Shown: positions 8,190 through 41,719 of the stretch, in pieces | Numbering within the stretch: the stretch's first letter is position 1 | Layout: the number at the start of each line of letters is the position of its first letter | NCBI GenBank assembly: GCA_017517305.1 | Contig: JAFWZV010000011.1 | Span: 123,877-187,876, forward strand | DNA from: Lachnospiraceae bacterium | Lineage (GTDB): Bacteria; Bacillota; Clostridia; Lachnospirales; Lachnospiraceae | Direction: 5' to 3' | Length of the DNA stretch: 64,000 nt | Position numbers and translations under genes: made by a program | The notes under the pieces: generated by a model | Seen by the model: only the letters and a program-made list of their open reading frames with translations | Told to the model about the DNA's origin: nothing | The model's database searches: none

Positions 8190-8191
8190 GA

Positions 8192-10157: not shown

Positions 10158-10159
10158 AA

Positions 10160-11590: not shown

Positions 11591-11604
11591 GGGAGGTAGA
11601 AGAT

Positions 11605-11775
11605 ATGGAATTAATGAAATCATTTGTTAAGTCTGAGGAAGCAATGGGAGTTGTGGAGATAATTCTAATCATCGTAGTGCTGATTTCTATGGTGGCTATA
11701 TTTAAGGATGAGATAGAAGATTTGGTGGATGATATATGGGATTCTATAGAGAATAGTGCAGAAAAAATCTACTAG
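11605..11775 (+). CDS. Flp1-like type IVb pilin, 56 aa
   Basis: This short gene starts at an ATG nine bases after GGGAGG. The product has a hydrophilic leader ending in EEAMG, a likely cleavage site, followed by VVEIILIIVVLISMVAIF, the hydrophobic assembly helix with a near-N-terminal Glu. An acidic C-terminal tail (DEIEDLVDDIWDSIENS) completes it. Size, helix and position between TadC and the accessory proteins match Flp1-like pilins of Firmicutes tad loci. It is probably the major pilin and the substrate of the peptidase at 6809. Confidence 0.85.
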   Translation: MELMKSFVKSEEAMGVVEIILIIVVLISMVAIFKDEIEDLVDDIWDSIENSAEKIY

Positions 11776-11815
11776 CTTGTATCTGGTATGAAGAAAAAAC
11801 AAAGGAGAGGAGAGC

Positions 11816-13204
11816 ATGAAAAATAAGGGAAGCGTCACAATATTTTGTTGTCTTATGATTACGGCAATGGTGCTTCTGGGACTGTCTGCTTTAAGAGCGG
11901 TTAGTCACCATCTTGCCAAGGCAAAAGGGGCGGTGGCAGTAAGGTCTGCTATGTCTGGTGTTAATGCAGGCTATAACAGCTATATCTTCGAGAATTATCA
12001 TATTCTCCTCTTTGATAAGTATTGTGGTGGTCGTGGTGAGGCTTATTTGGAGGAACAATTAATTAGAGATATTCAATATAATTTGGGGGATGGTTTTCAG
12101 GTTTGTCAGGTTGGAGTAAGCGATTATGAATTGCTTTTGGAGAATGATTGTCAGGCATTTAAGGAACAGATAAAAGAGTATTGTGGATATGCACTTATTG
12201 AGTCTGGTGCTAATAGTATCCTGGAGTCTACAGGAGGACAGGATGGAACAGTATCGGAATATGTATATCAGGATATTGAGGCGGCTGAGGAAAATGAAGA
12301 AATTATACCAGATATTCCCGGAGGTGATGTGGAGGATCCCAGGGACTTTACAGAAAACCTAACTGAGGATGGTATTTTGGCTATAGTGGCTCCTGAGGAT
12401 TTGACGATAAGTAGCGAAATTGTAGAGCTGTATGGAGTTCCTTCCTTGGAGAATAAAAAATTCAAGCTTCTTAATTATGAGATAGATAATGATTTTGATG
12501 ACATGGATGTTCTAAGGGAGGATATTGGCAAGTACGATTCCTGGAAGGACAGCCTTATCAGTGGAGGAGCGGGAGTGGCATATGCTTCTGCAGTGTTTAA
12601 CTGTGCCACAAAACAGCTTCAGGAGGATACAGTTTTTAACTTTGAATTAGAGTACATAATATGTGGCATGGATTCTGACAAAAGTAATTTAAAGGGAACC
12701 GTAAATAGGATTATAGGCATTAGACTTCCCGTAAATTATGCCTACCTGGTGTCTGATGCAGCTAAGATGGGAGAGATTGCAAAGCTATCAGTGCCACTAT
12801 CTATGGCAACAATGGTTCCAGAGCCCATACTAAGATATTTAATTGCTGGGTGTTGGGCATATGTAGAAGCCATTTTTGATGTAAGGTGCCTTTTAGAAGG
12901 CCAAAGTATGGATTTTCTAAAGAACAGTACTAACTGGAAAACAGATCTTTACGATTTGGAAAGTAGTGTAAATTTGGAAGGTCAGGAGTCTGAGTCAGGA
13001 CTATGCTATAAAGACTACCTGCTCATATTGTTGTCTATGAACATGGAGGATAATTATTACAGAATGTTGGATGTGATTGAGTTAAATACCAAAAAACAAT
13101 ATCCAAATTTTGATATGAATAATGCATCTGTAGGATTCTCTGCAGATGTACACATTTCTTATGATGGCAAAGATTATTATTACAGTAAAACCGTAGGGTA
13201 TTAG
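11816..13204 (+). CDS. DUF5702-type tad locus surface protein
   Basis: The 462-residue protein has a short N-terminal anchor (GSVTIFCCLMITAMVLLGLSAL) like that of TadE/TadG proteins, then AVRSAMSGVNAGYNSYIFENYHILLFDKYCGG, the recognisable start of DUF5702 proteins found in clostridial tad clusters. A middle acidic stretch (about 145-185) and a mixed C-terminal domain follow. The body is likely outside the cell. The molecular role is unknown; TadG-like pseudopilin or tip function is a guess from position. GGAGAGGAGAG precedes the ATG. A 22-bp hairpin follows the stop. Confidence 0.75.
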   Translation: MKNKGSVTIFCCLMITAMVLLGLSALRAVSHHLAKAKGAVAVRSAMSGVNAGYNSYIFENYHILLFDKYCGGRGEAYLEEQLIRDIQYNLGDGFQVCQVGVSDYELLLENDCQAFKEQIKEYCGYALIESGANSILESTGGQDGTVSEYVYQDIEAAEENEEIIPDIPGGDVEDPRDFTENLTEDGILAIVAPEDLTISSEIVELYGVPSLENKKFKLLNYEIDNDFDDMDVLREDIGKYDSWKDSLISGGAGVAYASAVFNCATKQLQEDTVFNFELEYIICGMDSDKSNLKGTVNRIIGIRLPVNYAYLVSDAAKMGEIAKLSVPLSMATMVPEPILRYLIAGCWAYVEAIFDVRCLLEGQSMDFLKNSTNWKTDLYDLESSVNLEGQESESGLCYKDYLLILLSMNMEDNYYRMLDVIELNTKKQYPNFDMNNASVGFSADVHISYDGKDYYYSKTVGY

Positions 13205-13223
13205 TAGTTGATTAATGTCTGCT

Positions 13224-13306
13224 GCCCTTAAGGTTTTCTATCCGTCCAATTATCATCGCAAATCCTCTCCAAAGGGCGCAAAGCACGGGTAGAAAGTCTT
13301 AAGGGC
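13224..13306 (+). ncRNA. 22-bp near-perfect RNA hairpin inside the pilus operon
   Basis: Bases 13224-13245 pair with 13285-13306 in 22 consecutive pairs (19 Watson-Crick and three G-U) around a 39-nt loop. The loop contains a CGCAAAGC segment. No T-run follows, so it is not a standard terminator. It fills most of the 139-base gap between the DUF5702 and TadE-like genes and could be a processing, stability or regulatory element. Confidence 0.65.
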
Positions 13307-13343
13307 TGTAGAAGCTAAGGAAGTATTAAGTTGGTGATTAGAT

Positions 13344-14078
13344 ATGAGAAATGATAATAGGGGAAGCGCAACTATAGAGGCATCTCTTGCTCTTCCAATA
13401 TTTATATTTGCGGTGCTTGTTATGTTTCATGGAATAAGGCTTAGGATGGCGGAAGCAATTATTTATGAGGCAGCAGCTGAAACTGTGGAATATATGGCAG
13501 AGCTATCATATATAACAGAATGTAATTACGGGGTGCCTGCTGTAAAGCTAAAGCAATACATAGATGACAAAAAGCTTGTAGAAGACTATGTTGTAGGCGG
13601 TGTAGATGGTGTCAGCTTTTGGGGAAGCACATACCTTGATGAGGAAGGTTACGTGTGTTTAAGGGTTAATTATAGTGTGGGTATAGATGTGCCCATAATA
13701 GGAGATTTGTCTGGCAAAAGGGAATATGTAATTAGACAGAGAGCCTATATTGGTGATGGGGATAAGGATCAAGGAGATGAGCTATCTCCAGAGGAAATAT
13801 ACGTGTATATTACAGATAATAGGGAAGTATATCACCTTTCAAGAGGATGCAGTCACTTGGATTTATCTATAACACCTATGTCTAAGAAGCAGGCCAAGAT
13901 GGAAGGCTATTCGTCATGCCAATTCTGTGGACAGAACGTTAAGGAAGCGGTATTGGTTACCAATCAGGGGGATAGATACCATAGTTATCCTGACTGCTTG
14001 GGTATAAAAAGAACCGTTTATAGAGTTAAAAAATCTCAGGTAGAGGGATTGGGGGCGTGCGAAAGATGCGGATATTAG
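13344..14078 (+). CDS. TadE-like protein with duplicated Cys/His metal-binding tail
   Basis: The 244-residue protein begins with RGSATIEASLALPIFIFAVLV, the TadE-type N-terminus with the Glu after Thr-Ile. The central part is probably extracytoplasmic. The C-terminus holds two similar units. The first is YHLSRGCSHL followed by CQFCG; the second is YHSYPDCLG followed by CERCGY. Each has the pattern YH-x(4-5)-C, about 22-24 residues, then C-x2-C, resembling Ada-type or related small zinc domains. Metal binding or a redox structure outside the membrane is inferred. The last bases overlap the next gene. Confidence 0.78.
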   Translation: MRNDNRGSATIEASLALPIFIFAVLVMFHGIRLRMAEAIIYEAAAETVEYMAELSYITECNYGVPAVKLKQYIDDKKLVEDYVVGGVDGVSFWGSTYLDEEGYVCLRVNYSVGIDVPIIGDLSGKREYVIRQRAYIGDGDKDQGDELSPEEIYVYITDNREVYHLSRGCSHLDLSITPMSKKQAKMEGYSSCQFCGQNVKEAVLVTNQGDRYHSYPDCLGIKRTVYRVKKSQVEGLGACERCGY

Positions 14079-14374
14079 ACATTCATAACAGGGGGAGTAT
14101 TACTATTGAAATGTGCTTCGTTATGCCTATAGTAATTGGAATAATAATGATGCTTATAAATATGATGCTAAAAGGCGTGGAGGAGGGAACCATTCTAGGG
14201 AATAGTCAGATGAAGGTCTATGAATATAGTGATTTATATGTAACGCAACACAGCGATGGGGATATATATGTAGAAGCAGATTTTATTTTCTCTACAGGCT
14301 GTAAACGGGAATGGAGGGTTTGTACTGACAGACTAAGGAGGTGGCAGTTATATGGAGATGTATTATGTGAGTAA
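14066..14374 (+). CDS. Second TadE-like minor pilin protein
   Basis: The 102-residue protein carries NRGSITIEMCFVMPIVIGIIMMLINMM, again the TadE-type motif with Glu at the helix start, then a short domain (residues 40-100) with two cysteines. The ATG at 14066 lies about ten bases after GGGGG; an in-frame GTG at 14057 is an alternative. It overlaps the preceding gene by 13 bases and the following FHA gene by 23 bases, so the three are translationally coupled. Confidence 0.72.
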   Translation: MRILDIHNRGSITIEMCFVMPIVIGIIMMLINMMLKGVEEGTILGNSQMKVYEYSDLYVTQHSDGDIYVEADFIFSTGCKREWRVCTDRLRRWQLYGDVLCE

Positions 14375-15299
14375 GGGGATAAATAACTACATACAGGTTA
14401 ATGGAGAACAAGATTTAATGGAAAAATCATCTCCACAATGCTATCGCTTAAAGATGATAGAAAATAATGACATAGCAGGTATTATTAGACCTGTATGCAT
14501 AGAGATAGATGGAAGGCTAACCCTCAAATACAACACATGCTCCTGTTACGTTTTGGATAGATTGTTCCTTAAATTCAGACCAGATGGAGGCTTTCTTAAA
14601 ATAATAATGAGTCAGCTGGAGGGATTACTTTATAGGCTGCGAGAGTATTTGCTTGAGCCAGATGATGTGGTTCTAAAGCCTGAGTATATGTTTTACAACT
14701 GGAGTGAAAAATCCTTGCGACTTATATATATTCCCGGCTATGGGATAAGTATTAAAACCCAGTTAAAGAGCTTTTTAGAGTACATAATGAAAATATTTGA
14801 CCATAGGGATGAAGAGGGCGTTAAGTATATGTATGGAATGTATGATTTAATCTGTGAGGATACATTTTCCATAGATGACTTTAAATATAGTTTAGAGAGT
14901 AATTATAAAGCTGTGGTTGATAAGGGAGAGTGTAATACTACACAGGGTGAATCCACACAAACTATATCAAAAGAAATCATGCAACAACAAAATGACAAGA
15001 CAATAACCAAATTGGTACCACTTACCAGTGGGGCATTGAAGGAAATTGTGGTGTCAAAATACGACGAAATGATATTAGTGGGTCGAGGAAAGAGGGAGAC
15101 GGATTATAGAATTCCCACCACACAAATTAGCAGAGTTCATGCTTGCATATACCTTAGGAGTAATGGAATATTTGTAGAGGATAGGGAGTCTACTAACGGT
15201 ACGTTTATTAATTCGGTCAGGCTAGAACCTTTAAAACAAGAGCAAATAAGAGTGGGGGATTTGGTGAATTTTGCAAATGAAGAGTTTTTTGTTGTTTAA
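14352..15299 (+). CDS. DUF6382 and FHA domain protein of the tad operon
   Basis: The 315-residue protein has two parts. Residues about 1-180 form a DUF6382-like domain (PEYMFYNWSEKSLRLIYIPG, FLEYIMKIFDH), similar in layout to the N-terminal regions of the FHA proteins at 28030 and 29609. Residues about 230-315 form an FHA domain with VGRGKRETDYRI, ISRVHACI and ESTNGTFIN, keeping the Arg, Ser-x-x-His and Asn residues that bind phosphothreonine. A polar linker with many Thr/Gln joins them. It is the last gene of the pilus operon and may link pilus assembly to Ser/Thr phosphorylation. AAGGAGGTGG precedes the ATG. Confidence 0.85.
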   Translation: MEMYYVSKGINNYIQVNGEQDLMEKSSPQCYRLKMIENNDIAGIIRPVCIEIDGRLTLKYNTCSCYVLDRLFLKFRPDGGFLKIIMSQLEGLLYRLREYLLEPDDVVLKPEYMFYNWSEKSLRLIYIPGYGISIKTQLKSFLEYIMKIFDHRDEEGVKYMYGMYDLICEDTFSIDDFKYSLESNYKAVVDKGECNTTQGESTQTISKEIMQQQNDKTITKLVPLTSGALKEIVVSKYDEMILVGRGKRETDYRIPTTQISRVHACIYLRSNGIFVEDRESTNGTFINSVRLEPLKQEQIRVGDLVNFANEEFFVV

Positions 15300-28029: not shown

Positions 28030-29580
28030 ATGAGAGTATTTAACTTCAAGGCAAGAAACATTGGAGAAGAAAAATATCTTACTTACACTATGGGTGAAGA
28101 GTGTGAGCTAGATGAAGACGTGCTTGATTATTGCGAGGAAAATAATCTTAAGGAGCTTGTAGATATAATCTACGAGGAAGATGATGATTATGATTACCTC
28201 ACCTATGATATAACTGGAAAGGTATCTTTGGAGGAACGAATTGTCTCAGAGATGAAGGCCGAGCAGGTGCTTTTCTTGGTGAGAAATGTTGCTGCAAATC
28301 TTATATCCTTTAAGGAGCAGGCAATTCAGTTGTCATATATTCTTCTCAACAGAAATTATGTATATGTTGATGAAAATATGGAGCTTCAGTATATTTGCTT
28401 ACCTATAGAGAGCAAGGCAGCTGTTGCAACAGAGTTTAAGAGCTTCGTAAGACAGCTTTTAGCTAACATGAGATATGATGTAGAAGAAGATCTCTCTTAT
28501 GTTGGAAAGCTTCTTACATATATTAATGGTGACAGCTTTACTTTAAGAGGTTTGGTTGGACTTGCTGAAGCTCTTATGGAGGAAGCTGGACTTAGCTTTG
28601 AAGAGACTGGGGCTATAGATGCTGATGGAGTAGAAGTAGTTAATGAGGAGCCTGTATTCGAGACAGAGGACACTTCTAATGTATCAGATTTTATGAGCAG
28701 TATGGATGATGCAGATGTACTTCCAGAAATCGGCGATGACGAGGAAGAAGAGGTTGAGGATACTCAGGTTGCAGATGAGGAGCTTGATAGCATTCTTCCA
28801 GCAGGAATGGCAGCTGTTAAGGAGGAAGAAATTCCTACCATTGCAGAGCCAGATGAGGAAGCACCAAAGCCAGAGGAGGTTAAGGAGGAGCCTCCAAAGC
28901 CAGTGTTAGAAAAGCCTGTAGAAGCACCTCAGAGCAAGGAAACAGACGTTGATATAATTAAGAGTAGAATTAAAGAATTAGTTGGAACAGTTCCAACCTT
29001 AAAGCCAAATCCAGAACCAGAGGGTGATATCAAGACATTAGATGATTTGGATCATGTGCTTGGTGCTAACAGACCACCGGTTATTAAGAAGAATGTTGTT
29101 AAGGTAAATAGAGCAGCCCTTATTCAAAGTGCCGCAGAGCATGAGGGTGAGACAGAGAAGTTAGAGGGCCCAGGTCCAGTGCCAGTTGTAGAGCCTGAAG
29201 AGGAGGAAAAGCCAAAGAGCAATTCCATCTTAAGCAAAACTGTAGCAGAGGCACCAAGAGCATCTATTTTAAATGCACCTAAGGCTATGCCTTATCTTGT
29301 TAGAGTAAATACTGAAGAGCGAATTATGCTCGGAAAAGTTATGTTTAAGATTGGTAAAGCATCTAGAGGAGTTGATTACACAGTTGATGGCAATGGAGCA
29401 ATTAGCCGTCAGCATGCAGTAATAATTCAGAAGGACGGAGTTTGCTATATAAAGGACAATAAGTCCACTAACCATACATATGTTAATGAAAAGATGGTAG
29501 AGGATGGCGTGGAGGAAATCCTCACACATGATTCAAGGATAAGACTTGGAGATGAGGAGTTCATATTCAAGATTAGATAA
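28030..29580 (+). CDS. DUF6382 and FHA domain protein 1
   Basis: The 516-residue cytoplasmic protein begins with a DUF6382-like domain (about 1-195; LLNRNYVYVDENMELQYICLPIES, RYDVEEDLSYVGKLLTYIN). A long acidic and proline-containing linker (about 200-410) follows. The C-terminal FHA domain (about 425-515) has IGKASRGVDYT, ISRQHAVI and KSTNHTYVN, the phosphothreonine-binding set. It lies between mltG and a second protein of the same design. By family knowledge the FHA reads phosphothreonine; the kinase at 32661 is the obvious writer. AGGAGGG precedes the ATG. Confidence 0.88.
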   Translation: MRVFNFKARNIGEEKYLTYTMGEECELDEDVLDYCEENNLKELVDIIYEEDDDYDYLTYDITGKVSLEERIVSEMKAEQVLFLVRNVAANLISFKEQAIQLSYILLNRNYVYVDENMELQYICLPIESKAAVATEFKSFVRQLLANMRYDVEEDLSYVGKLLTYINGDSFTLRGLVGLAEALMEEAGLSFEETGAIDADGVEVVNEEPVFETEDTSNVSDFMSSMDDADVLPEIGDDEEEEVEDTQVADEELDSILPAGMAAVKEEEIPTIAEPDEEAPKPEEVKEEPPKPVLEKPVEAPQSKETDVDIIKSRIKELVGTVPTLKPNPEPEGDIKTLDDLDHVLGANRPPVIKKNVVKVNRAALIQSAAEHEGETEKLEGPGPVPVVEPEEEEKPKSNSILSKTVAEAPRASILNAPKAMPYLVRVNTEERIMLGKVMFKIGKASRGVDYTVDGNGAISRQHAVIIQKDGVCYIKDNKSTNHTYVNEKMVEDGVEEILTHDSRIRLGDEEFIFKIR

Positions 29581-29608: not shown

Positions 29609-31816
29609 ATGAAGAAGGTAGATTTGACAGTTACAAAGCAGAATAACGTAGATGTAGTTAGATATGAGCTTAAGGCTACAGATGTTTATGATGAAAGAGT
29701 GTCTGATAAGGTTACTCAGATTGCTACTATAGTTCCATTTCAGTATTCAGATGAAGATGGAATTAGAAGCATTACTTCTTACGTGAAGGATGGAAATACT
29801 CTTGAGTCTATGACCAAAAAAACTCTAGATAAGAAATCAGTATTGGCCATTATGAGTGGCTTATCAGGTGCCTTCGAGGTGGGAGCGCAAGGTGTACCTG
29901 TAAGCTATATAGTAAAGGATTTAAGTTACATATATGTTAATGAGGAGAATTACAGCGTAAAATGTTTACTTCTTCCTATTAAGCAGGATGTGATGCCTAT
30001 GGCTGAGCTTCCGAAGCTTTTTAGAGAAATACTTTCAAAGCTTAGATATGATGAGCAGGATAAAGATAATTACGTGGCAAAGCTTATTACACTTGTGAAT
30101 TCTGATGATTTTACAGTAGGTAAGCTTAAGGATTTAGCTGACAAAGAGCTTGAACAAATTGGATATTTCGTAAGCAAGGACAACGGTCTTAGCAGTATGA
30201 ATGCAGGTAAGGCACCAGCAACTAACAATGGGGTAAAGGTTAATAAGCTTGGTGTTATGAATAATATGATGGGTCAGCCACCAATGGGCCAGCCAATGCC
30301 AGGAGCGCCAATGGGAATGCCGGGCCAGCCACCAATGATGGGAGGAAGACCACCAATGCCAGGAACACCTCAGGCTATGATGGGTCAGCCACCAATGGGC
30401 CAGCCAATGCCAGGAGCACCAATGGGCCAGCCAATGCAGGGTCAGCCACCAATGGGCCAGCCAATGCCAGGAGCGCCAATGGGTCAGCCGATGCCGGGAG
30501 CAGGACCTAAGCTGGGAGCACCAGCGCCACAGGGAATGCCAGGCCAGCCACCGATGATGGGAGGAAGACCACCAATGCCAGGTCAGCCACCAATGGGCCA
30601 GCCAATGCCAGGAGCACCAATGGGTCAGCCGATGCCAGGAACAGGACCTAAGCCGGGAGCACCAGCACCACAGGGAATGCCAGGCCAGCCACCGATGATG
30701 GGAGGAAGACCACCAATGCCAGGTCAGCCACCAATGGGTCAACCGATGCCAGGGGCACCAGTGGGTCAGCCGATGCCAGGAGCAGGACCTAAGCCAGGGG
30801 CACCAGCACCTCAAGGAATGCCAGGCCAGCCACCGATGATGGGAGGAAGACCACCAATGCCAGGTCAGCCACCAATGGGACAGCCAATGCCAGGAGCACC
30901 AATGGGGCAACCGATGCCAGGAGCACCTGCACCTCAAGGAATGCCAGGCCAGCCACCAATGATGGGAGGAAGACCACCAATGCCAAGTCAGCCACCAATG
31001 GGACAGCCAATGCCAGGTGCACCAGTTCCACAGCCAAAGGTTGAAGAACCAAAGGAAGAGGAACCAAAGGTAGAAGAGCCAAAGGTAGAGGAGCCAAAGG
31101 TAGAAGAGGCAAAGGTAGAAGAGGCAAAGGTGGAGGAGCCAAAGGTAGAAGAGGCAAAGGTAGAAGAGGCAAAGGTGGAGGAGCCAAAGGTGGAGGAATC
31201 TAAAGAGGAAGATCTTAAGCCACCAGTGATGCCAGTGGCACCAACACCAGTAGCGCCAGTGGCACCAACACCAGTAGCGCCAGCGGCACCAACACCAGTA
31301 GCGCCAGCGGCACCAACACCAATAGCGCCAGCGGCACCAACACCAGTAGCGCCAGCGGCACCAACACCAGTAGCACCAGTGGCACCAACACCAGTAGCGC
31401 CAGCGGCACCAACACCAGTGATGCCAACAGCACCAATGCCTAATGCAGCACCAGCTCCAAAGCCAGGTGAGTTTACTATGGGCAATATTACTGGTCAGTT
31501 AGGACAGAAGCCAGTGCCACATATTATTAGAAAGAATACAGGTGAGGCAGTTAATATTACAAAGCCTGAATTCACTATTGGAAAGTCAAAGACAAAGGCA
31601 GATTATGCTATCGAGAATAATACAGCCATTAGTAGAGTACACTGTACAATTATTCAGAAGGATGGCGTAAACTACATTATAGATAATAATTCAACTAACC
31701 ATACCTATGTTAATGGTGTGGAGCTTGAGCCAGGCAAGGAAGTTCTTCTTAAGAACAAGACAGTAATTCAGCTTGGTGATGAAGAGTTTACATTCCTACT
31801 TAGAAAGGGAGAGTAA
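29609..31816 (+). CDS. DUF6382 and FHA protein 2 with very long repetitive linker
   Basis: The 735-residue protein has three parts. Residues about 1-185 are DUF6382-like ([39 protein letters not shown]). Residues about 215-615 are repeats: Met/Pro/Gly/Gln-rich 47-residue units, then [10 protein letters not shown]-type units, then APTPVAPA units. The FHA domain (about 635-733) has [19 protein letters not shown] and NSTNHTYVN. The linker should be extended and flexible, with neutral, charged and Pro-Ala stretches. The paired domains match protein 1, so the two probably share partners. Confidence 0.88.
30268..31440 (+). repeat. In-frame tandem repeats of FHA protein 2
   Basis: Three repeat types follow one another: [12 protein letters not shown]-type units with a higher-order 141-bp period (unit starts near 30532, 30673 and 30814), 15-18-bp units encoding KVEE(P/A) (about 31040-31200), and APTPVAPA units (about 31235-31430). 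All periods are multiples of three, so slippage would change length without breaking the frame. Confidence 0.85.
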
Positions 31817-31817
31817 T

Positions 31818-32588
31818 ATGGAATACATAGCGGCGTACCACACTGATGTGGGGATAAGTAAAAAGACTAATCAGGACTCCCTTGCTCTTAAGGTGGTAGA
31901 AACCAAGAAGGGTAAGGTTGCATTTGCTATTGTATGTGATGGAATGGGAGGATTGTCTAAGGGAGAATTAGCCAGTAAAGAGGTTATAATGGCCTTCAGT
32001 GACTGGTTTGACAATACTCTTATCGATGATATAAATGCACAGGGGATTAACGAGGAGAGACTAGTTAGTCAGTGGAACGACATAATCCAGACTCAGAACA
32101 AAAGACTTGGTGAGTATGGAGAGAAGAATAATATAATGCTTGGAACAACTGTGTCGGCAATACTCTTATTTAATGATGATTACTATATAGTGCATGTAGG
32201 TGATAGTAGAGTGTATTGTATGACAGATAAGGTACTTCAATTAACTAAGGATCAAACCTTTATTGCCAGAGAAATTGCAGCAGGAAGAATGACAGAGGAG
32301 CAGTCAAAGACAGATCCTAGAAGAAGTGTACTTTTGCAATGTGTGGGAGCATCTCAGGTAGTTGAGCCAGAGTTTGTAAAGGGACATGCAGTAAAGGACG
32401 CAGTTTATATGCTTTGCTCAGATGGATTTAGACATCAGATAACCGAGCAGGAAATGATTGAAAAAATAGGTCCCGACAAGGTTAAGACAGAGCAGGACAT
32501 AGAATTTGGATGTAGATATCTTACAGAGACTGTAAAGAATAGAAAAGAATCCGATAATATTACAGTGGCAGTTGTAAAAACTGCTTAA
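31818..32588 (+). CDS. PP2C-type Ser/Thr protein phosphatase 1
   Basis: The 256-residue metal-dependent phosphatase shows all PPM motifs: KKTNQDSLAL, VCDGMGGLSKGELAS with the metal-binding Asp, the central MLGTTVSAILLF and VHVGDSRVYCM, LTKDQTFIA, CSDGFRHQI and KESDNITVAVV. It is soluble. The ATG at 31818 is one base after the FHA protein 2 stop, with AAAGGGAGAG upstream, so the genes are coupled. Directly upstream of the kinase gene, it is the natural eraser for the kinase's phosphothreonine marks. Confidence 0.93.
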   Translation: MEYIAAYHTDVGISKKTNQDSLALKVVETKKGKVAFAIVCDGMGGLSKGELASKEVIMAFSDWFDNTLIDDINAQGINEERLVSQWNDIIQTQNKRLGEYGEKNNIMLGTTVSAILLFNDDYYIVHVGDSRVYCMTDKVLQLTKDQTFIAREIAAGRMTEEQSKTDPRRSVLLQCVGASQVVEPEFVKGHAVKDAVYMLCSDGFRHQITEQEMIEKIGPDKVKTEQDIEFGCRYLTETVKNRKESDNITVAVVKTA

Positions 32589-32660: not shown

Positions 32661-34838
32661 ATGACTAAGGAAGGTACTGTATTAGACGGAAAATATGAAA
32701 TATGGAAAGAGGTTGGACGAGGTGGAATGTCCATTGTTTATCTTGCAAGAGATAACAGACTTAACAAGCAGTGGGCTGTTAAGGAGATAAAGAATGATGG
32801 TTCAAAGTCTACCACAACCTTGCTTAAGGGACTTGAGCGAGAGGCTAACATTCTTAAGAATGTTGACCATCCAGTTCTGCCTAGAATAGTAGATATTATT
32901 AATCAGGAGGGAACAATCTATGTTGTTATGGACTTCATAGAGGGTACCACTATTCAGGACAGACTAAAGAAAGAAGGAGCCCAGCCACAGGATTTGGTTA
33001 TAGAGTGGGGACTCCAGCTTGCCAGCGCCCTTGATTACTTACATAATATGAATCCACCTGTAATATACAGAGATATGAAACCTTCCAATGTTATGATAAA
33101 GCCAGAGGGAGGCGTAAAGCTTATTGATTTCGGTACTGCAAAGGAGTACATAATTGAGAACAATGCAGATACTACTGCCTTAGGAACAAGAGGATATGCA
33201 GCACCAGAGCAGTTTGGAGATTCACAGGGTAGAGGTATATATAAGACTGACGCCAGAACTGATATATATAATCTTGGAGCTACACTTTATCATATAGTAA
33301 CAGGCAAAAATCCTTGTGAGCCACCTTATGAGATGAAGCCTATTAGAGAGTGGAATCCAGCTCTTTCAACTGGCTTAGAGAAAATCATTTTAAAATGTAC
33401 TCAGCCTGATCCAAATGATAGATATCAGAATTGTTCAGAGCTTATGTATGCATTGGAGCATTATACAGAGCTGGACGATGAGTATAAGAAAAAGAATAAG
33501 AATAGATTAGCAGCATTTGTTGCAACCTCAGTATTGACAGTGGCAGCTGGAGTAACCTCCCTTGTTGGATATGCGGGTATGCAACAGATAAAGCTGGATA
33601 ATTATAATGCTTATATTGAGACAGGTAATGAATATAGAGCAGAGGGCAATTATGTTGCAGCTGCTGAGGAATACAAGAAGGCCTTTGAGCTTGATGGAAG
33701 CGACGCAGAGGCTTATGACAAATATATTCAGGTATATGTTGATGCTTCCAATGAGATAAGAGTTGACGGAAGCACAGATTTACAGCTTGAGACAGGTCTT
33801 AATGTTGTTGCAAATAGAATTAAGGCGGGACATGATTCGGTGAATAAGAATGATCAGGTCCTTTATAAGCTTGCCATGACATATTTTGATGAATTAGGAG
33901 ATTATAAGCTTGCTAGTAAATACTTTAATATGATAGACCCTGATGATTCAAATTATGGAGAATTAGGTCAGTATTATGGCTCCGTTTCAAGACTGTTATC
34001 AGACACTAATGTTAATGCAAGTGAATTAATGGAGAAGATAGATAGCTTTGCTATTTATAACCAGAATGAATTCACTAATCAGAATGACAACAAGTTCATT
34101 AATTATAAGACTATTGGACGTATATATGCTACTTATATTGCAGAGGACGGAGTGGCAGAGAATGCGGACAAGATTATGAATCAGGCCATAGATGATTTGG
34201 AGGAGTACACAGGTACTACTCTTGATACCAATGATTATTTCTATTCATACTATGAAAACCTGATAGTAATTAATGAGTATTTGGCTAAGAATACAGACAA
34301 TGAAAACTTGAAGGAACAGTACAACACAGCTGTAATCAATTACACTGAAGAGTACTTGACCATTCTTAATATAAAGTTAGCTGAGAATGAAGGCATCACC
34401 ATTGGAGGTGAAAGCGACAACATTTTCAATACATCCTATTATAATGTAATGTCTGGAAAGGCAGATGCTTATGCAAATATAGGAGATTACGATAATGTAA
34501 TAGCAACCTATGAGGAAATTGAAGCAACTCTTGGCAAGAATAATGCTTTGAGTAATAAGGTATATGCAGACCATCTAGATTACATTTACTCCTATTGTGT
34601 AGACATCAACCAGGATCCTGCAAATTGGAAGAAGATGTGTGCATCGGAGGTTGAGGATCTTCTTGCAATCTACGAAGAGGGTCAGGATGTAAAGGATATG
34701 GCTACAAATAGAACATGGAACAAGCGTAAGGACACAGTGGATAAGCTGGCCAAGGGTTTGTACGATGAGGAAGAAAAGACAGAAGATGCTTCAGATGCTG
34801 ATGACCAGGATGATGAAGCTGGCGAGATGGGAGAGTGA
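32661..34838 (+). CDS. Membrane Ser/Thr protein kinase with TPR-like ectodomain
   Basis: The 725-residue protein has a full Hanks-type kinase domain (about 11-270): glycine loop VGRGGMSIVY, catalytic Lys in WAVKEI (41), YRDMKPSNVM with Asp 138, DFGTA with Asp 156 and GTRGYAAPEQFG. A single membrane helix lies at about 283-305 (LAAFVATSVLTVAAGVTSLVGY). The 400-residue outer part contains helical TPR-like units (YRAEGNYVAAAEEYKKAFELDGSDAEA region). Unlike PrkC it has no PASTA domains, so it should sense something other than muropeptides. An acidic tail ends the protein. The next gene overlaps its stop or starts just after it. Confidence 0.92.
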   Translation: MTKEGTVLDGKYEIWKEVGRGGMSIVYLARDNRLNKQWAVKEIKNDGSKSTTTLLKGLEREANILKNVDHPVLPRIVDIINQEGTIYVVMDFIEGTTIQDRLKKEGAQPQDLVIEWGLQLASALDYLHNMNPPVIYRDMKPSNVMIKPEGGVKLIDFGTAKEYIIENNADTTALGTRGYAAPEQFGDSQGRGIYKTDARTDIYNLGATLYHIVTGKNPCEPPYEMKPIREWNPALSTGLEKIILKCTQPDPNDRYQNCSELMYALEHYTELDDEYKKKNKNRLAAFVATSVLTVAAGVTSLVGYAGMQQIKLDNYNAYIETGNEYRAEGNYVAAAEEYKKAFELDGSDAEAYDKYIQVYVDASNEIRVDGSTDLQLETGLNVVANRIKAGHDSVNKNDQVLYKLAMTYFDELGDYKLASKYFNMIDPDDSNYGELGQYYGSVSRLLSDTNVNASELMEKIDSFAIYNQNEFTNQNDNKFINYKTIGRIYATYIAEDGVAENADKIMNQAIDDLEEYTGTTLDTNDYFYSYYENLIVINEYLAKNTDNENLKEQYNTAVINYTEEYLTILNIKLAENEGITIGGESDNIFNTSYYNVMSGKADAYANIGDYDNVIATYEEIEATLGKNNALSNKVYADHLDYIYSYCVDINQDPANWKKMCASEVEDLLAIYEEGQDVKDMATNRTWNKRKDTVDKLAKGLYDEEEKTEDASDADDQDDEAGEMGE

Positions 34839-34843
34839 TAGAT

Positions 34844-35791
34844 ATGAGTAGCGTTTATGAAATGTGTTTCTATGGCGGACTGATATTAGCTATTATCTTC
34901 CTTATAATATCCATAATATTATTTATAGTGTTAAAGATACCGAAGGTAATCGGAGAATTATCAGGTAGAGCTGCTAAGAAGAGCATAAAAGAAAAAAGAC
35001 AGGGTAAGACCCCTGAAAATAATGTTTCTAAGAAGGAACAGGCGAAGTATTATAATCAGAATACTGGCAAGATAAAGGTTAGAGATACAGTATCTCAGGA
35101 GACCAGAGCAAACAATCAGGATGATACTACAGACAACCTTGGCAAGGGAGAGGCTCAGAAGAAGAAACCTGCATTCACACCTCAGTTTGATCCAGAGGAG
35201 ACTGCAGTGCTAGGAGCAAGCGCCAAGATGGATGATGAGATTGCTAAGGCTGCTGAAGATGTTGGTGAAACACCTACAGATGTACTGAGAGATCAGGCAG
35301 ACGAAGAGGCAACGGATGTACTTAAGTCAGAGGAAGTAGATGAAGAAGCAACCGATGTACTTAAGACAGAGGAAGTAGACGAAGAAGCAACGGATGTGCT
35401 TAAGTCAGAGGAAGCAGACGAGGAAGCAACGGATGTGCTTAAGACAGAGGAAACAGACGAGGAAGCAACCGATGTACTTAAATCCGAAGCGGATGAAGAT
35501 GAAACAGTAGTGCTTAAGTCGGAAGTAGATGAGGATGCAACAGATGTATTAACCTCAGATAATGCAGGAAATGAACCAAAAGCGTCGGAAATGGATGTTG
35601 ACGATGATGCAACAGACGTGTTAAGGTCAAATGATGAGGATGATGAGCCAGCCACTGATGTGCTTCGTGGAGAAGCCCCAGAGGCAAGCGATTCAACAAC
35701 AGTACTTGCATCCAAGAAAACAAGACAACTAGCCCACAAGGCAAAAGTAATCTACAATATCGTAGTTGTACATACAAGCGAAAAGATTTAA
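34844..35791 (+). CDS. Membrane protein with twelve T-x-V-L motifs (candidate phosphothreonine scaffold)
   Basis: The 315-residue protein has an N-terminal helix (about 7-31), a basic segment (AAKKSIKEKRQGK), and an acidic tail with twelve T-x-V-L motifs over residues 120-289. Nine read TDVL; the others are TAVL, TVVL and TTVL. Five copies form exact 13-residue units (DEEATDVLKSEEV-type). FHA domains bind phosphothreonine and read the plus-3 residue; Leu at plus 3 fits every copy. Encoded after the kinase and near two FHA genes, it is best explained as a multivalent docking substrate. This is inference; the family name is unknown. The ATG at 34844 is ten bases after GGGAG. Confidence 0.75.
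   Translation: MSSVYEMCFYGGLILAIIFLIISIILFIVLKIPKVIGELSGRAAKKSIKEKRQGKTPENNVSKKEQAKYYNQNTGKIKVRDTVSQETRANNQDDTTDNLGKGEAQKKKPAFTPQFDPEETAVLGASAKMDDEIAKAAEDVGETPTDVLRDQADEEATDVLKSEEVDEEATDVLKTEEVDEEATDVLKSEEADEEATDVLKTEETDEEATDVLKSEADEDETVVLKSEVDEDATDVLTSDNAGNEPKASEMDVDDDATDVLRSNDEDDEPATDVLRGEAPEASDSTTVLASKKTRQLAHKAKVIYNIVVVHTSEKI
35300..35494 (+). repeat. 39-bp tandem coding repeats (five units)
   Basis: Five in-register 39-bp units start at 35300, 35339, 35378, 35417 and 35456. Each encodes one acidic 13-residue unit carrying a TDVL motif. The nucleotide copies differ at synonymous sites (ACC/ACG, GTA/GTG), which argues for retention of the peptide rather than very recent duplication. Confidence 0.85.
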
Positions 35792-35802
35792 GGGGGAATA
35801 AG

Positions 35803-38800
35803 ATGAAAAGATTATTCAGAAAGGACAACCGAATAGCTAGGCTTATAGCAATGTGGTTAGTGTTTATTATGGCACTTACACCATTTTATGAGCATTCGGG
35901 AATAAAGAATCCGACTAAGGCGTCAAGTGGTACCATGGAGTATACACTTGATATTACTGTGACAGATTTACTCACAAAGAATGGTGATGATACAGTAGTG
36001 ATGGATAATACAGATGTCAATGCTATTCATTATCATATTATTGGAGATGATACAACTAATAACATGTATTATTGGAATTGTACTGGTTCATATAATTCTG
36101 CTACCATAAAAGCTAATGTTAGTGGTAGCTTGAGTTATGATACTAATTCTAATGTTGGATATGAGTACAAGGTAAAGGTGTACACTAATGGTGCTACTCC
36201 AGATCCGTATTTGGCAGCAACTGATGACACGCTTAAACTTCCTACTGAAGGATTAACAGTTGATAATGTAGATGATACATATGCCATATACGTGAAGGTA
36301 AATTCTTTTTCATATGGGAATAATAATCCTCAAGATACAGCAAGTGACACTAATAACAAGTGGTATTTGCTTGCAAAATACAAGCTTGTAGGTCAGACAT
36401 CTGCTGACATTCCTTATGGCTGGGATACTTCAGAAAGTGTTGCAAACGATGCAAGTTTAGTACAGTTTGGTGTGGTTACGGCTCCTGATGTATTTATTGG
36501 AGAGATATCGTATTACTATATAGAAGGAAATAGTTCAGATGTAACAAGTTATACTGAGACAAATCTTATTCCTTTTGAACATTCAACAAAGCTTTATGAA
36601 GATAAGGCAGAAGAGGATGGTCGCTATGCAGGCTTTGTAAAATATAGAATTGATACAGACGAGACAAACTATTATTACTTAGGTGATGTGATTGAAATAG
36701 ATAATACAAATCCTAAATATAAGGCAGATATATCAGTAGCTCTTGAAGGAACGAACCCTTCTACTGGAAATCCATTTTTGTCTAGTGCCGAGTTAGAGGA
36801 TGGAGTATGGTATATTGATGCGAGTAGACAAGGTGTTACGAATTATCAGGTTAAATTCTCCCTGATAGAAGCTAATCATCTTGATTCCTTAAACCTTAAG
36901 TTATATGATACTGAAACTAATGTTGAACTTTCTGGAAGTGTAATTGCTGAAAAAACGACTGGCATGCCAGGCTACCCTTATTACGAAACTACTAACATAA
37001 ATAATAGTACGTTCACATTTACTCCAGGTGTGATTTACGAGCTTAGAGGAACGATTACTGATGCGGCTGGAAATAAGGCGGATGATGTTAATGGTAATAG
37101 TCTTGGCGATGATGCTAAGTTAGCAAAGCTTTGTTTTATTGATAAATCATTTAAAATAACCTCATGGAAGGTTAATGACGTAGAAGGTGGAAGTCTTATT
37201 ACACCATGTAATTACCAGCAGAAGCTTGATGTTACTGTTAGCTCAGGAAAAACATTGGGATCTATATGGGTATATTCAGATACAGACAATAATAATGTTT
37301 ATACAGATGGAACAGATGTTGAGATAGCTAACTATACATTCTCTGACGCGGAAGCATCTAATAAATCTAAGGGAGTATATACTAATTCACATCAATTTAT
37401 GATTCCTGCAACAGAAGGAATATATGATAATGTAAAGGTATATGCTTGTGATTCGGATCCTGTTAATGGAAATGCAACCGTTACTGTTTCTTCAGATAAA
37501 TTAGTATATGATATAACAAATCCAGTAGTAACCTGTGCTAATGATGCCAACATATTTATCTATAAGAAAAATGCTCAGACTAGTGTATATGAACCATTAC
37601 CTGCAGACCAGATAGTGTCTGGCCAGTATTCATTGGATACAGGAAAGAGTGAAGAATATAGATTATATGTTAAGGTTGAGGAAAACATTGATACAGAGCC
37701 TTCTGTAAAAGCATACTATTATGCTGCAGGTAATGTTAGAACCCCAGTGGGCGATATGTTGCCAGAGGATCCAAATGCTAAATCATATGGATATTATTAT
37801 CTCAATATGTCAACAGGAGATTTAATTACATTATTAGCAAATACAGACGCAAATAGATTATTGTTTGAAGTTGAGGTAATTGATGATGTTAACCTTAATT
37901 GTAGGGTGACATCTAATCCAGAAATTATTATTTCTGATAAGACTCTTAGAATAGACAGTGCTTTGCTTACTGTGGGAAATACCAATCAGCCAGTTGATAT
38001 TTTTACTGGAGCTGGTAACTATAGTAATAGCGAATTGTTCAAATTGACAATAACTGCTTCTTCAGGATATCCAATTACTTTGATAGAAGCAATTAAAGAT
38101 GTAACTACTGCTAATCCAACTGGTACAGCTTTTGATCCAGTGGTTCAGGCTACGTTTACAGAAGAGCAAAATACTCAGGATCCAGTTACAAAACGTTATA
38201 GTGTAACAGCCACAATTGTTATACCAAGTAGCGTAGCTGAGGATACCTTAAACTTATTACTTGAAGAGGTTCACGTTAAGGCTACAGATAATCATACGCC
38301 TGTAGACGTTAATGTAGATCCAAATGAGGTTTATTATAGATTAGGAACACTCCTCTATGATGCTACAGATCCTGTAATGACAGATGTGGATACAGGATTA
38401 GCCTTTGTTGCTGATGATGGAAAGTGGTATAAGGCATTAGCTGGAGAAAATTATATTGAATTAGATGCTAAATTCACAACAGGTCCACAGAATGTAGATG
38501 AATCTACATTTGAAGAAGGAAAGATTACATATGTTGTTGAAAATACAGCTGCTAATGATATTCTTGAGCCAACTAGTAATGGAGTTGTGATTAATAATGC
38601 AGATGCACTTAGCGCTACTGCCAATGTAAAAGTACCTGAGTCAAAAAATGCATATGGTACTAAGGTTACATTTAGTGCAGTGGATAAAGCAGGAAATGCT
38701 TTAGAAAATAATAATTACATTGTAAGAAAGATTGATGGTCATAATCCTAGAATCACATCAGTAAAGGTTAATGGCAATGAAAGCAATTCAGTTCCATTAA

Positions 38801-40863
38801 GTTCTGCAGTGAAGATAGATGCTGGAGTTTGGGATAATTTGGCTATTGATAAGATTGTGATTGATGTAAATCAGTTGGATGGAACCACTTATTATTCAAA
38901 AACTGTAGATGATGATTTAATAAATTATGATTCAACAGAAGTGACTAAGAATGCCTCATATGAGGTAACTCTTCCTGATGGAAGCTACAAGGTAACAGTT
39001 AAGGCTTATGATATGGCTGGTTGGGAATCTATCGAGAAGAATGCTTACTTCACCGTCGACAGCACAGCTCCAGTAGTTGATGCTACAATCAGCGCTGGTA
39101 CAGCAGGTAAGACAGATTACTTCTACAAGTCAAATGTTACAGTTGCACTTACATGTACAGAGAAGCATTCAGCTAACATTACTGTAACTGACAATGGAAC
39201 TCCTGTATCAGTAACTTGGAAGACTAATTCTGAGACTGGTGTTAAGGAAGGAACTTATACAGTATCAACAGATGGCTTACATACAGTGAAGATTGAGGCT
39301 AAGGATGGTACTGGCAATGCTGCAACAGCTGATTCAGTTGCATTTATTAAGGATACTAAGGTGCCAGTTATTAACGCAATGTTAAATGGTGCAATTAACT
39401 ACAGTGAGTCAGATGGTGTTAGAGTGTTTACAGCTAATACTACACTTGCGTTCTCAGAGAAAGATGATAATAAGGATGCAAATGGATTCTACTATCAGAT
39501 GACTAAGACAGTACCAGATGAGACTCCTGTTGTTGGTAAGTCTGACAAGACTCCACATAGAAGCTTCTCATATACTGATGAAGCAGAGTATACTGTTAAT
39601 GTCTACTCAGTAGATATGGCTAACAATGTTAGTGCAACAAAGACAGTTAGATTTAGAATTGATAAGACAGCACCAAGCATTAGCATTGGTGGTATAGGAG
39701 ATGGTGGTTCATCATCTAATCCAGTAACAGTTTCTCTTAATATGCAGGAGCTTTATTGGAGCGATGCTACCGGAACAGTAGAGATTTATATGAAGTCTGG
39801 TGAGGGCTTCGGCGAGGAGCTTATTGAGGAGATTCCATATACTCCAACAGGTAGAAATACTTCAATTTCAAGATCCTTTGCTGAGTCTGGAATTTATCGT
39901 ATTGAGTTTAATGCACAGGATAGTGCGGGTCATACTGCAACTACTTCAAGCTCATTTACTATAGATACAGAGGTTCCTGTAGTAACACTTGAAGGTGTAG
40001 CAAACTATGATGTAACAGATAAGGATGTTACTATTGCATCAACTATTACAGATAAGTTCTACGCTTCTAAGAAGGTAACTATAACTGGAAGTGTGACTGA
40101 CGATACTGGAAAGGTTACACCACTCACTATAGATAACTATAGTGCAACTGCTAACCCAACAGTTATCAATGAAACCTTCAGCGAAGATGGTATATATGAT
40201 TTAACCATTACCTGTGTTGATATTGTAGGTAATACAGATTCTAAGTCAGTACATTTCATAATTGATAAGACTGATCCTGTAATCGGAGATTTGTCTGATT
40301 ATGAGGATAAGATCCTTACTTCCTTTGTATGGGATAAGGATTTGGATGAGCTTGTATCAGACCTTACTGTATGTGATGTTCACATGTACTTGAATGGACA
40401 GGAATACAATGGTGAGGATGCAGTAGAGGATGGTTCATATATACTTCTTATTACTGCGGAGGATGAGCTTGGACACTTAGTTGAGAAGGAGGTTAAGTTC
40501 ACTCTTGATACTAAGGCACCTGTATTTATTGTAACTGGTGTTGAGGATGAAGAGAGCAGAATTGAACCATACAATATCTCAGTATCACTTCAGCTTGAGG
40601 AGGATACTCTTACATCTGTAACATTGAATGATAAGGTGGTTACAATCAATGGTAACACAGCAACATTTAGCGTAACAGAGATTGGCGAGTATAAGCTTTA
40701 TATGGAGGCTGTGGATGAGGCTGGAAATGTTTCATCAGCAGAATACGAGTTTGAGCTTGAGGCTGAGAAGGAGTTTGACTTCGGAATTATTATAGCTATC
40801 GTAGCAGTACTTCTTGTGATTATAATTTTCTTAATTATTAGAAGTAAAAGCAAGAAGAAATAA
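35803..40863 (+). CDS. Giant Ig-like surface protein with C-terminal membrane anchor
   Basis: The 1,686-residue protein has a signal peptide (IARLIAMWLVFIMALTPFYE), a long extracellular stalk of repeated bacterial Ig-like domains, and a C-terminal helix (IIIAIVAVLLVIIIFLIIRS) followed by a short basic tail. Repeat landmarks are DKTAPSISIGG, DSTAPVVDATI, DTEVPVVTLEG, DKTDPVIGDL and DTKAPVFIVTG, each starting a module of about 90-100 residues, with AGN or AGW turns near module ends. No LPxTG sorting signal is seen. As the last gene of the kinase/FHA operon it may be the outward-facing component. A terminator follows. Confidence 0.88.
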   Translation: MKRLFRKDNRIARLIAMWLVFIMALTPFYEHSGIKNPTKASSGTMEYTLDITVTDLLTKNGDDTVVMDNTDVNAIHYHIIGDDTTNNMYYWNCTGSYNSATIKANVSGSLSYDTNSNVGYEYKVKVYTNGATPDPYLAATDDTLKLPTEGLTVDNVDDTYAIYVKVNSFSYGNNNPQDTASDTNNKWYLLAKYKLVGQTSADIPYGWDTSESVANDASLVQFGVVTAPDVFIGEISYYYIEGNSSDVTSYTETNLIPFEHSTKLYEDKAEEDGRYAGFVKYRIDTDETNYYYLGDVIEIDNTNPKYKADISVALEGTNPSTGNPFLSSAELEDGVWYIDASRQGVTNYQVKFSLIEANHLDSLNLKLYDTETNVELSGSVIAEKTTGMPGYPYYETTNINNSTFTFTPGVIYELRGTITDAAGNKADDVNGNSLGDDAKLAKLCFIDKSFKITSWKVNDVEGGSLITPCNYQQKLDVTVSSGKTLGSIWVYSDTDNNNVYTDGTDVEIANYTFSDAEASNKSKGVYTNSHQFMIPATEGIYDNVKVYACDSDPVNGNATVTVSSDKLVYDITNPVVTCANDANIFIYKKNAQTSVYEPLPADQIVSGQYSLDTGKSEEYRLYVKVEENIDTEPSVKAYYYAAGNVRTPVGDMLPEDPNAKSYGYYYLNMSTGDLITLLANTDANRLLFEVEVIDDVNLNCRVTSNPEIIISDKTLRIDSALLTVGNTNQPVDIFTGAGNYSNSELFKLTITASSGYPITLIEAIKDVTTANPTGTAFDPVVQATFTEEQNTQDPVTKRYSVTATIVIPSSVAEDTLNLLLEEVHVKATDNHTPVDVNVDPNEVYYRLGTLLYDATDPVMTDVDTGLAFVADDGKWYKALAGENYIELDAKFTTGPQNVDESTFEEGKITYVVENTAANDILEPTSNGVVINNADALSATANVKVPESKNAYGTKVTFSAVDKAGNALENNNYIVRKIDGHNPRITSVKVNGNESNSVPLSSAVKIDAGVWDNLAIDKIVIDVNQLDGTTYYSKTVDDDLINYDSTEVTKNASYEVTLPDGSYKVTVKAYDMAGWESIEKNAYFTVDSTAPVVDATISAGTAGKTDYFYKSNVTVALTCTEKHSANITVTDNGTPVSVTWKTNSETGVKEGTYTVSTDGLHTVKIEAKDGTGNAATADSVAFIKDTKVPVINAMLNGAINYSESDGVRVFTANTTLAFSEKDDNKDANGFYYQMTKTVPDETPVVGKSDKTPHRSFSYTDEAEYTVNVYSVDMANNVSATKTVRFRIDKTAPSISIGGIGDGGSSSNPVTVSLNMQELYWSDATGTVEIYMKSGEGFGEELIEEIPYTPTGRNTSISRSFAESGIYRIEFNAQDSAGHTATTSSSFTIDTEVPVVTLEGVANYDVTDKDVTIASTITDKFYASKKVTITGSVTDDTGKVTPLTIDNYSATANPTVINETFSEDGIYDLTITCVDIVGNTDSKSVHFIIDKTDPVIGDLSDYEDKILTSFVWDKDLDELVSDLTVCDVHMYLNGQEYNGEDAVEDGSYILLITAEDELGHLVEKEVKFTLDTKAPVFIVTGVEDEESRIEPYNISVSLQLEEDTLTSVTLNDKVVTINGNTATFSVTEIGEYKLYMEAVDEAGNVSSAEYEFELEAEKEFDFGIIIAIVAVLLVIIIFLIIRSKSKKK

Positions 40864-40943: not shown

Positions 40944-40990
40944 TTATATAGTTATTGGTATTTTTTTGAAGTTTGTAAATGGAGGTAATT

Positions 40991-41719
40991 ATGATCGATT
41001 TTTATATGTATTCATCTCCAGGTGGTAGAGATAATAATGAGGATTACATTACTAAGGCTGAATACGGTGAGGACAAATGCTTTGTTCTTTGTGATGGCCT
41101 TGGAGGCCACGATTGTGGAGAGGTAGCATCCTCTTATGTGGCAAATGTTGTGGCAGAGGAGTTTTCGCTTTATGGAGATAGACCGGATTTTTTAGCTAAT
41201 GCTTTTAATAAAGCACAACAAGGTCTTCTTAAGCTTCAGGAGGAGCGCGGATTGACTAATGCTATGAAAACTACCTTGGTGGTACTTGTGGTTACTGAGA
41301 GTCAGATTAAGTGGGCTCATATAGGAGATAGCAGACTGTATCGTTTCTATGATAGTGGTGATAAGTACGAGAGAACCAGAGATCACAGTATGGTTCAGAT
41401 ACTTAAGGATATGGGTGAAATTACTGAGGCAGATATGCGTCACCATGAGGATAGGAATAAGGTATTACGAGTTATGGGCGCAGAGTGGAGTACAAAGAAC
41501 TTTGATTTAAGCGCTGTTCTTGAGAGAGGTGAATCACAAAGCTTTGCTCTTATGACAGATGGATTTTGGGAATATGTTCTTGAGGAGGAGATGATGAGTC
41601 TTCTCAAGACTACAGATAGTGCTAAGAGCTGGCTTGAGGCTATGGAACAGCTAGTGTTAGAGAGAGCTGATATGACTAAAACAGATAATTATTCAGCTAT
41701 ATGTGTAAAGATTGATTAG
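40991..41719 (+). CDS. PP2C-type Ser/Thr protein phosphatase 2
   Basis: The 242-residue soluble phosphatase carries the PPM motifs GGRDNNEDYI, LCDGLGGHDCGEVASS, AMKTTLVVLVV, AHIGDSRLYRF, TRDHSMVQIL, MTDGFWEYV and KTDNYSAICVKI. It is diverged from the phosphatase at 31818. It has its own promoter after the operon terminator, so it can be controlled separately from the kinase. The ATG at 40991 follows GGAGG by five bases; an in-frame ATG at 40979 overlaps that ribosome site. A palindrome follows the stop. Confidence 0.92.
   Translation: MIDFYMYSSPGGRDNNEDYITKAEYGEDKCFVLCDGLGGHDCGEVASSYVANVVAEEFSLYGDRPDFLANAFNKAQQGLLKLQEERGLTNAMKTTLVVLVVTESQIKWAHIGDSRLYRFYDSGDKYERTRDHSMVQILKDMGEITEADMRHHEDRNKVLRVMGAEWSTKNFDLSAVLERGESQSFALMTDGFWEYVLEEEMMSLLKTTDSAKSWLEAMEQLVLERADMTKTDNYSAICVKID

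Follow-up and report, generated by a model that had tools for sequence, protein, structure and literature searches.

We consider it reasonably probable that the single-helix membrane protein encoded at positions 34844..35791 of the window (the whole 64,000-nucleotide stretch of DNA that was analysed; all window features described below lie on its + strand) serves a signalling module of kinase, PP2C and FHA proteins as its membrane-anchored phospho-acceptor. The first-pass annotation of this DNA had suggested that the neighbouring kinase phosphorylates the repeated threonines of this protein, hereafter the tail protein, and that FHA proteins dock on them; as a hypothesis, this scaffold is well supported, and the interpretation as a whole is supported in part.

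The open reading frame of the tail protein extends from an ATG at 34844 through the stop codon to 35791 and encodes 315 amino acids, with its ATG five bases after the stop codon of the kinase gene. Hydropathy and charge place a single hydrophobic helix at 34877..34936 (peak window at residues 12-30), and the hydropathy scan found no second hydrophobic window in the 315-residue protein. The net charge is -1 ahead of the helix and +5 at residues 32-62. The positive-inside rule is the basis for orienting the flanks of a helix, and since the positive flank follows the helix, the tail is predicted to be cytosolic. With 67 Asp or Glu versus 19 Lys or Arg at residues 101-295, the tail is acidic and probably lies on the cytosolic side of the membrane. 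The helix is followed by a juxtamembrane segment conserved in alignments (IPKVIGELSGRAAKK...KEQAKYYNQNTGKI, 34937..35074) and by the motif region (35201..35707), which starts with TAVL and ends with TTVL. A recount confirmed the twelve T-x-V-L motifs previously noted in this acidic tail behind one helix: nine TDVL and one each of TAVL, TVVL and TTVL. When the 270-residue tail was shuffled 20,000 times, the mean was 0.13 such motifs and the maximum 3, and the tail protein is the only one among the 52 window ORFs examined with three or more T.[VI]L motifs. A comparison of repeats and codons delimited five 13-residue units (35300..35494), which had been described as exact repeats with synonymous differences. 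Their 13-residue spacing is exact, and their invariant core DEEATDVLK is encoded by synonymously differing codons, but two positions of the unit are variable and the last residues of the fifth unit depart from the pattern. The C-terminal end of the protein (KVIYNIVVVHTSEKI, 35744..35788) is conserved as well and lies outside the T..L pattern; in alignments it is kept across the genus as KVxYNVVVVHTDExL and is echoed by ihTdEvi in many distant homologues. The source bacterium is of the gut type.

A scan of public genomes yielded 53 loci with the tail gene, 33 near and 20 distant, all titled Lachnospiraceae or other Clostridia save L060, which bears a Bacteroides title and shares an identical tail start with a genus member. 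Within the genus, the tail protein is present in 35/37 genomes, including 18/18 of those of good quality, and the two genomes lacking it have a completeness of 80% and 64%. When the class was searched with a short profile free of repeats, 13 matches were obtained in at least 12/391 genomes, a lower bound given the short profile and the scoring of no more than 16 candidates in each genome. Two of these matches (L188 and L189), which by eye resemble multi-pass transporters and have no kinase neighbour, were removed; all 11 retained ones, the window and one genus member included, have an adjoining kinase and one or more T..L in the tail. The tail protein is a member of a family that is widespread and has hardly been described.

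PP2C and kinase genes immediately precede the tail gene in 53/53 loci, and an FHA gene stands upstream of this PP2C-kinase-tail set in 49/53 (33/33 near and 16/20 distant). The proposed co-occurrence of the repeats with kinase and FHA genes was thus found throughout for the kinase but in 49 loci only for the FHA neighbour. Among the four remaining loci, L089 has its PP2C gene at the contig start, L099 and L101 gave no FHA match next to the module, and L095 gave none within 3.3 kb upstream of its PP2C gene. All four genomes encode FHA proteins elsewhere, those of L099 and L101 one each. Upstream of the PP2C gene, the window encodes two DUF6382-FHA proteins: the TseJ-like one at 28030..29580 passes both Pfam cut-offs, and the one at 29609..31816 is above the cut-off for FHA and scores 24.2 bits for DUF6382 (cut-off 26.7 bits). 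The latter has a long Pro/Met-rich linker with PKVEE-type repeats. The PP2C-type phosphatase (PF13672, 39.8 bits) is placed at 31818..32588, as the ATG at 31818 is the likely start of an ORF that opens with TTG at 31773. Downstream of the tail gene lie the genes of a large TseI-like Ig-like envelope protein (35803..40863; Big_13, Big_3_3 and PKD), the N- and C-terminal ends of which are hydrophobic by eye, and of a second PP2C phosphatase (40979..41719, assigned by Pfam); many near loci have such a phosphatase gene after that of the Ig-like protein. In several distant loci, a small multi-helix membrane protein (L104:10588-11100, which has no Pfam family, and similar ORFs) is encoded between the tail and Ig-like genes.

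The Ser/Thr kinase itself (32661..34838; PF00069, 156.5 bits) has a TPR C-terminal part, where TPR_14 is above its Pfam cut-off (29.7 bits) and the remaining TPR models are under theirs, and a hydrophobic segment near residue 290, recognised by eye. Its catalytic motifs AVK, YRDMKPSN and DFG are intact, and its activation loop reads ADTTALGTRG. A pattern search across the loci recovered the D-T-x-x-L-G activation loop in 17/18 distinct kinase segments, the 18th coming from a further kinase of L098 that is not part of the module; five module kinases outside the catch of the pattern have ADTTVLGT or ADTKVLGT. The tail motif resembles this likely autophosphorylation site of the kinase, a match that is suggestive only, because activation loops with D-T-x-x-L-G are widely found in bacterial kinases.

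FHA domains need phosphothreonine and often read the residue at +3 (for the +3 reading, PMC4037201). From the conservation, the gene order and the kinase motifs, together with the predicted topology, we infer phosphorylation, FHA binding and a client as follows. In the cytosolic tail, every T-x-[VI]-L would receive a phosphate on its Thr from the neighbouring membrane kinase or from one regulated together with it. By binding several pThr sites at once, FHA domains would gather FHA proteins at the membrane, with the motif copy number setting the number of readers held, and PP2C would reverse the phosphorylation of the tail, resetting the switch. The recruited client would be an envelope machine, namely EssC, the ATPase of type VII secretion with an FHA domain of its own, where it is present, and otherwise Tad-type pili or the Ig-like envelope protein, the client differing between lineages.

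The first-pass annotation knew of no described system with this gene set; however, the components match those of T7SSe and T7SSj in the available part of Garrett et al. 2024 (PMC11217815). As described there, T7SSe comprises a kinase, a PPM phosphatase, a DUF6382-FHA protein, the Ig-like TseI and the single-helix TseH/TseK, and further EssC, WXG100 and ubiquitin-like proteins, and in T7SSj the kinase has a TPR C-terminus and TseH is absent. TseH and TseK have a single helix with a short unstructured cytosolic part, TseI has a signal peptide and a C-terminal helix, and control by phosphorylation is suggested; repeated threonine motifs are not mentioned in that part of the source, in which Clostridium acetobutylicum ATCC 824 is reported to have a T7SSj. 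Gene kinds TseD, TseF, TseJ and TseI are present at the window locus: the membrane kinase is of the TseD kind, the PPM phosphatase of the TseF kind, the DUF6382-FHA protein 28030-29580 corresponds to TseJ, and the large Ig-like protein, its terminal hydrophobic ends judged by eye, to TseI. By its topology and by the occurrence of homologues in the EssC loci L100 and L104, the tail protein is probably a counterpart of TseH or TseK, either of which would fit. The TPR C-terminal part of the window kinase, with one TPR model above cut-off, resembles that of TsjD of T7SSj; in contrast to T7SSe and T7SSj, the window locus has two DUF6382-FHA genes and one more in the Tad cluster. Absent from the window locus are an EssC-type ATPase (TseC) with an N-terminal FHA domain, which is on contig C6 of the same genome, as well as WXG100 (TseA, TseA2) and TseB. 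WXG100 was above cut-off only on C6, where a TseB-like ORF, recognised by position and resemblance, follows EssC.

These likenesses invite a T7SS-specific reading, in which the tail protein would be TseH or TseK of T7SSe/T7SSj and would help to assemble the apparatus by recruiting EssC through its FHA domains, solitary copies being split loci; we regard it as unlikely. In its favour, EssC, EsaB-like and WXG100 genes lie just upstream of the J-PP2C-kinase-tail-Ig genes on the same contig in L100 and L104. T7SS genes stand on the module flank in L100, L103 and L104, and probably also in L087, L097 and L098, where, assuming identical contigs, the last ORF coincides with the expected EssC start; this last ORF has an FHA match in L087 and none in L097. 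The genome of the window itself has an FHA-EssC (TIGR03928, 1068 bits) and WXG100 genes, both on another contig, and gave no YukC/EssB match, so by that mark its system is not of the T7SSb kind. EssC was also found in 11/20 distant tail-bearing genomes at 1e-20, one of them weakly (1.8e-28). Among 397 family genomes, 31 had tail and EssC, 28 tail only, 65 EssC only and 273 neither, so that EssC is enriched with the tail (31/59 tail-positive genomes vs 65/338; odds ratio 4.65, p 2.7e-7); both family lists are lower bounds, as the training set of the tail profile came from the genus and no more than two EssC candidates in each genome were scored, at a threshold of ~1e-36. Against such a reading, EssC was not found in 28/59 tail-positive family genomes, among which some may have been missed with no more than two candidates scored in each. 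In the genus, where all candidates were scored in the EssC-negative genomes, EssC (E below 1e-100, by eye) occurs in 14/37 genomes and in 8/18 good-quality ones, vs 35/37 for the tail. The tail is present in 21 of the 23 genus genomes without EssC, and in a single-contig genome (G018) it occurs with no EssC match beyond FtsK level. Since the tail is often present without EssC, these genome counts point to association, not dependence, and the tail is not tied to type VII secretion.

A second candidate machine for the phospho-acceptor is found in the window. A Tad-pilus-type cluster (6845..14374) comprises an A24 peptidase, a TadA-type ATPase, T2SSF, DUF5702 and a TadE-like gene (Pfam; TadE 21.3 bits, cut-off 22.9 bits), and at its end, at 14352..15299, comes a third DUF6382-FHA gene (DUF6382 126.4 bits, FHA 58.7 bits). 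TadA is present in 37/37 genus genomes, and in ten of the genus genomes TadA and the tail were seen by eye on one contig, ~25-50 kb apart, although this synteny within one genus may simply be inherited. In 5/20 distant loci, Tad- or prepilin-type genes lie ~5 kb or less upstream of the FHA gene: an A24 peptidase in L085 and L088, DUF5702 in L091 and L094, and TadE in L093. EssC is present in the L093 and L094 genomes, and none was found at 1e-20 in those of L085, L088 and L091. Upstream of the module in L093, an ORF (392-1861) has a TadE-like start (28.4 bits) joined to a TNT-family domain (65.3 bits). We tentatively suggest a portable Clostridia kinase-PP2C-FHA module with a valence-tunable phosphothreonine landing strip (T-x-x-L, few to ~15 copies), which might be plugged into type VII secretion in some lineages and into Tad-type pili in others, with the Ig-like protein alone in much of the genus.

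To describe the motif, 30 genus homologues and the 53 loci were pooled, and tails with the same first 60 residues were collapsed, leaving 57 distinct tails (37 near, 20 distant). Thr occupies the first place of x-x-[VI]-L in 324/332 near and 42/43 distant positions; Ser is found at this place five times in near tails, with ~3.1 expected (tail composition: Ser 7.5-8.9%, Thr 10.5-10.9%). The counts of T..L were 378 vs 46.8 shuffled in near and 106 vs 18.0 shuffled in distant tails, and near tails contained 324 T.[VI]L vs 4.6 in shuffles; these numbers describe conservation and are not p-values, as neither the repeats of one protein nor related species are independent. The number of T.[VIL]L per tail is 2 to 15 (median 9) in the near set, some tails being cut by contig ends, and 0 to 6 (median 2) in the distant set. 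The +2 residue varies (V, I, L, A or P) while T and the +3 L persist, distant members included, where the variants ETAPL, ETAALN, TTLL, TMVL and TELL occur; in one genome with two tail paralogues, one has mainly TMVL and the other mainly TELL. The tail of L093, 1/20 distant homologues, has no T.[VIL]L and only TVPL. In these alignments, the conservation of the motif is threonine-specific and +3-Leu-specific.

Such specificity bears on the possibility of phosphorylation-independent binding, via a kinase docking motif or a SIM-like acidic-hydrophobic motif for ubiquitin-like EsaB, which we find distinctly improbable. The acidic flanks and the V/I-L core of the tail presumably resemble SIM-type motifs, and EsaB-like genes occur in T7SS loci. 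However, SIM accepts V/I at the first place, unlike the nearly constant Thr counted above, and many tail-positive genomes have no EssC match. That the tail is a low-complexity acidic spacer with slippage-expanded repeats and no specific reader is highly improbable, for although its acidity and variable copy number would suit a spacer, T and L persist as the flanks, spacing, +1 and +2 residues change, T.[VI]L far exceeds its shuffled count, and the drift of the +2 residue in the distant set weakens the slippage reading.

The putative readers of the phospho-acceptor were considered through the pockets of their FHA domains. All aligned domains have the pocket Ser, His and Asn; Lys stands for the usual phosphate-binding Arg in 44/46 near and 17/21 distant FHA domains. 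Both adjacent window proteins have this K/S/N pocket, so that of the Arg and Ser expected by the first-pass annotation, Ser (and also Asn) is kept but Arg is replaced by Lys. Because of this Lys, the readers may be non-standard FHA domains or other FHA proteins with a canonical pocket, such as that of the Tad cluster (14352-15299) or the EssC on another contig of the same genome, both with an Arg pocket (R-S-N). An FHA ABC transporter of that genome also has the pocket Arg. Within the family, the FHA domains of several EssC proteins have the Lys pocket as well, and the pocket type of EssC showed no clean relation with tail presence. The Lys pockets and this non-tracking of EssC pockets speak against the phospho-acceptor reading, as do the motif-less tail of L093, the missing FHA matches at L099, L101 and L095, the 21 tail genomes without EssC, and the scarcity of flanked motifs in near FHA partners described next.

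Similar threonine motifs occur in some of the FHA proteins. A GETTVL pair lies just ahead of the FHA domain in 7/20 distant FHA ORFs (one with GETSVL), and several further distant ones have GTTVL or GTVVL. T.[VIL]L was counted 44 times vs 6.9 shuffled in distant and 29 vs 11.0 in near FHA ORFs; in near partners, an acidic- or glycine-flanked motif is rare (2 in 47 ORFs), with just two T.[VIL]L having D/E/G/N before the Thr. There was little or no enrichment of T.[VIL]L in distant and near kinases (14 vs 10.5 and 26 vs 22.3 shuffled) or PP2C proteins (9 vs 7.3 and 4 vs 12.7), and none in the near Ig proteins (46 vs 62.4). DUF6382 as an EssB-like pseudokinase was also considered and found no support (profile comparison probability 1.3%, no PDB sequence match).

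The proposed relay has partial precedents, each taken from the part of its source that was available. In the T6SS, Thr14 of the membrane protein TssL is a target of PpkA, and once phosphorylated TssL is bound by Fha (PMC3953482); that pathway, like the proposed one, links a membrane kinase, a membrane protein modified on Thr and a cytosolic FHA reader, but it uses a single site and belongs to Gram-negative bacteria. Under the T6SS Fha/TagH model TIGR03354, the window FHA proteins scored 31.0 and 38.6 bits vs a cut-off of 120.25. GarA, an FHA-bearing protein, is phosphorylated by a Ser/Thr kinase on an E-T-T motif (ETTS), comparable with the paired GETTVL of distant FHA partners; in contrast, it is a metabolic regulator, non-membrane and with one motif (PMC5448819). 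In the Fha/PpkA condensates that place the T6SS, the kinase assembles with the FHA protein in association with the membrane, and the secretion machine is recruited there, whereas a repeated pThr tail is not mentioned in the portion available (PMC12607579). Among the titles and abstract starts searched, with subscription papers and preprints outside the search, we found no literature on a TxxL/FHA membrane scaffold in Clostridia, and DUF6382 appeared in PMC11217815 alone within the literature searched under the same exclusion. If the phospho-acceptor reading is true, TseH/TseK-type proteins, described in the available part of PMC11217815 as short unstructured membrane proteins only, would gain a concrete, testable role as phospho-acceptors linking T7SSe/T7SSj kinases to FHA proteins. 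It also suggests that one phospho-switch serves machines beyond type VII secretion, and that tails in which the site number changes quickly while the site itself is fixed form a natural series for bacterial multivalent phospho-signalling.

Several gene arrangements were noted besides. In L087, L097, L098 and L102, the Ig-like gene is followed by a second FHA gene and then by an ATPase-like gene (AAA_31 in L097), a layout reminiscent of TsfJ and TsfV of T7SSf. On contig C6 of the window's genome (L038, 72500-92000), EssC, EsaB-like and WXG100-type genes come directly after genes that by eye resemble IF3-L35-L20. L037:7365-10028 encodes an ABC transporter with two N-terminal FHA domains with an Arg pocket, beside a gene that is ftsZ-like by eye, a layout which we take to resemble that of Rv1747.
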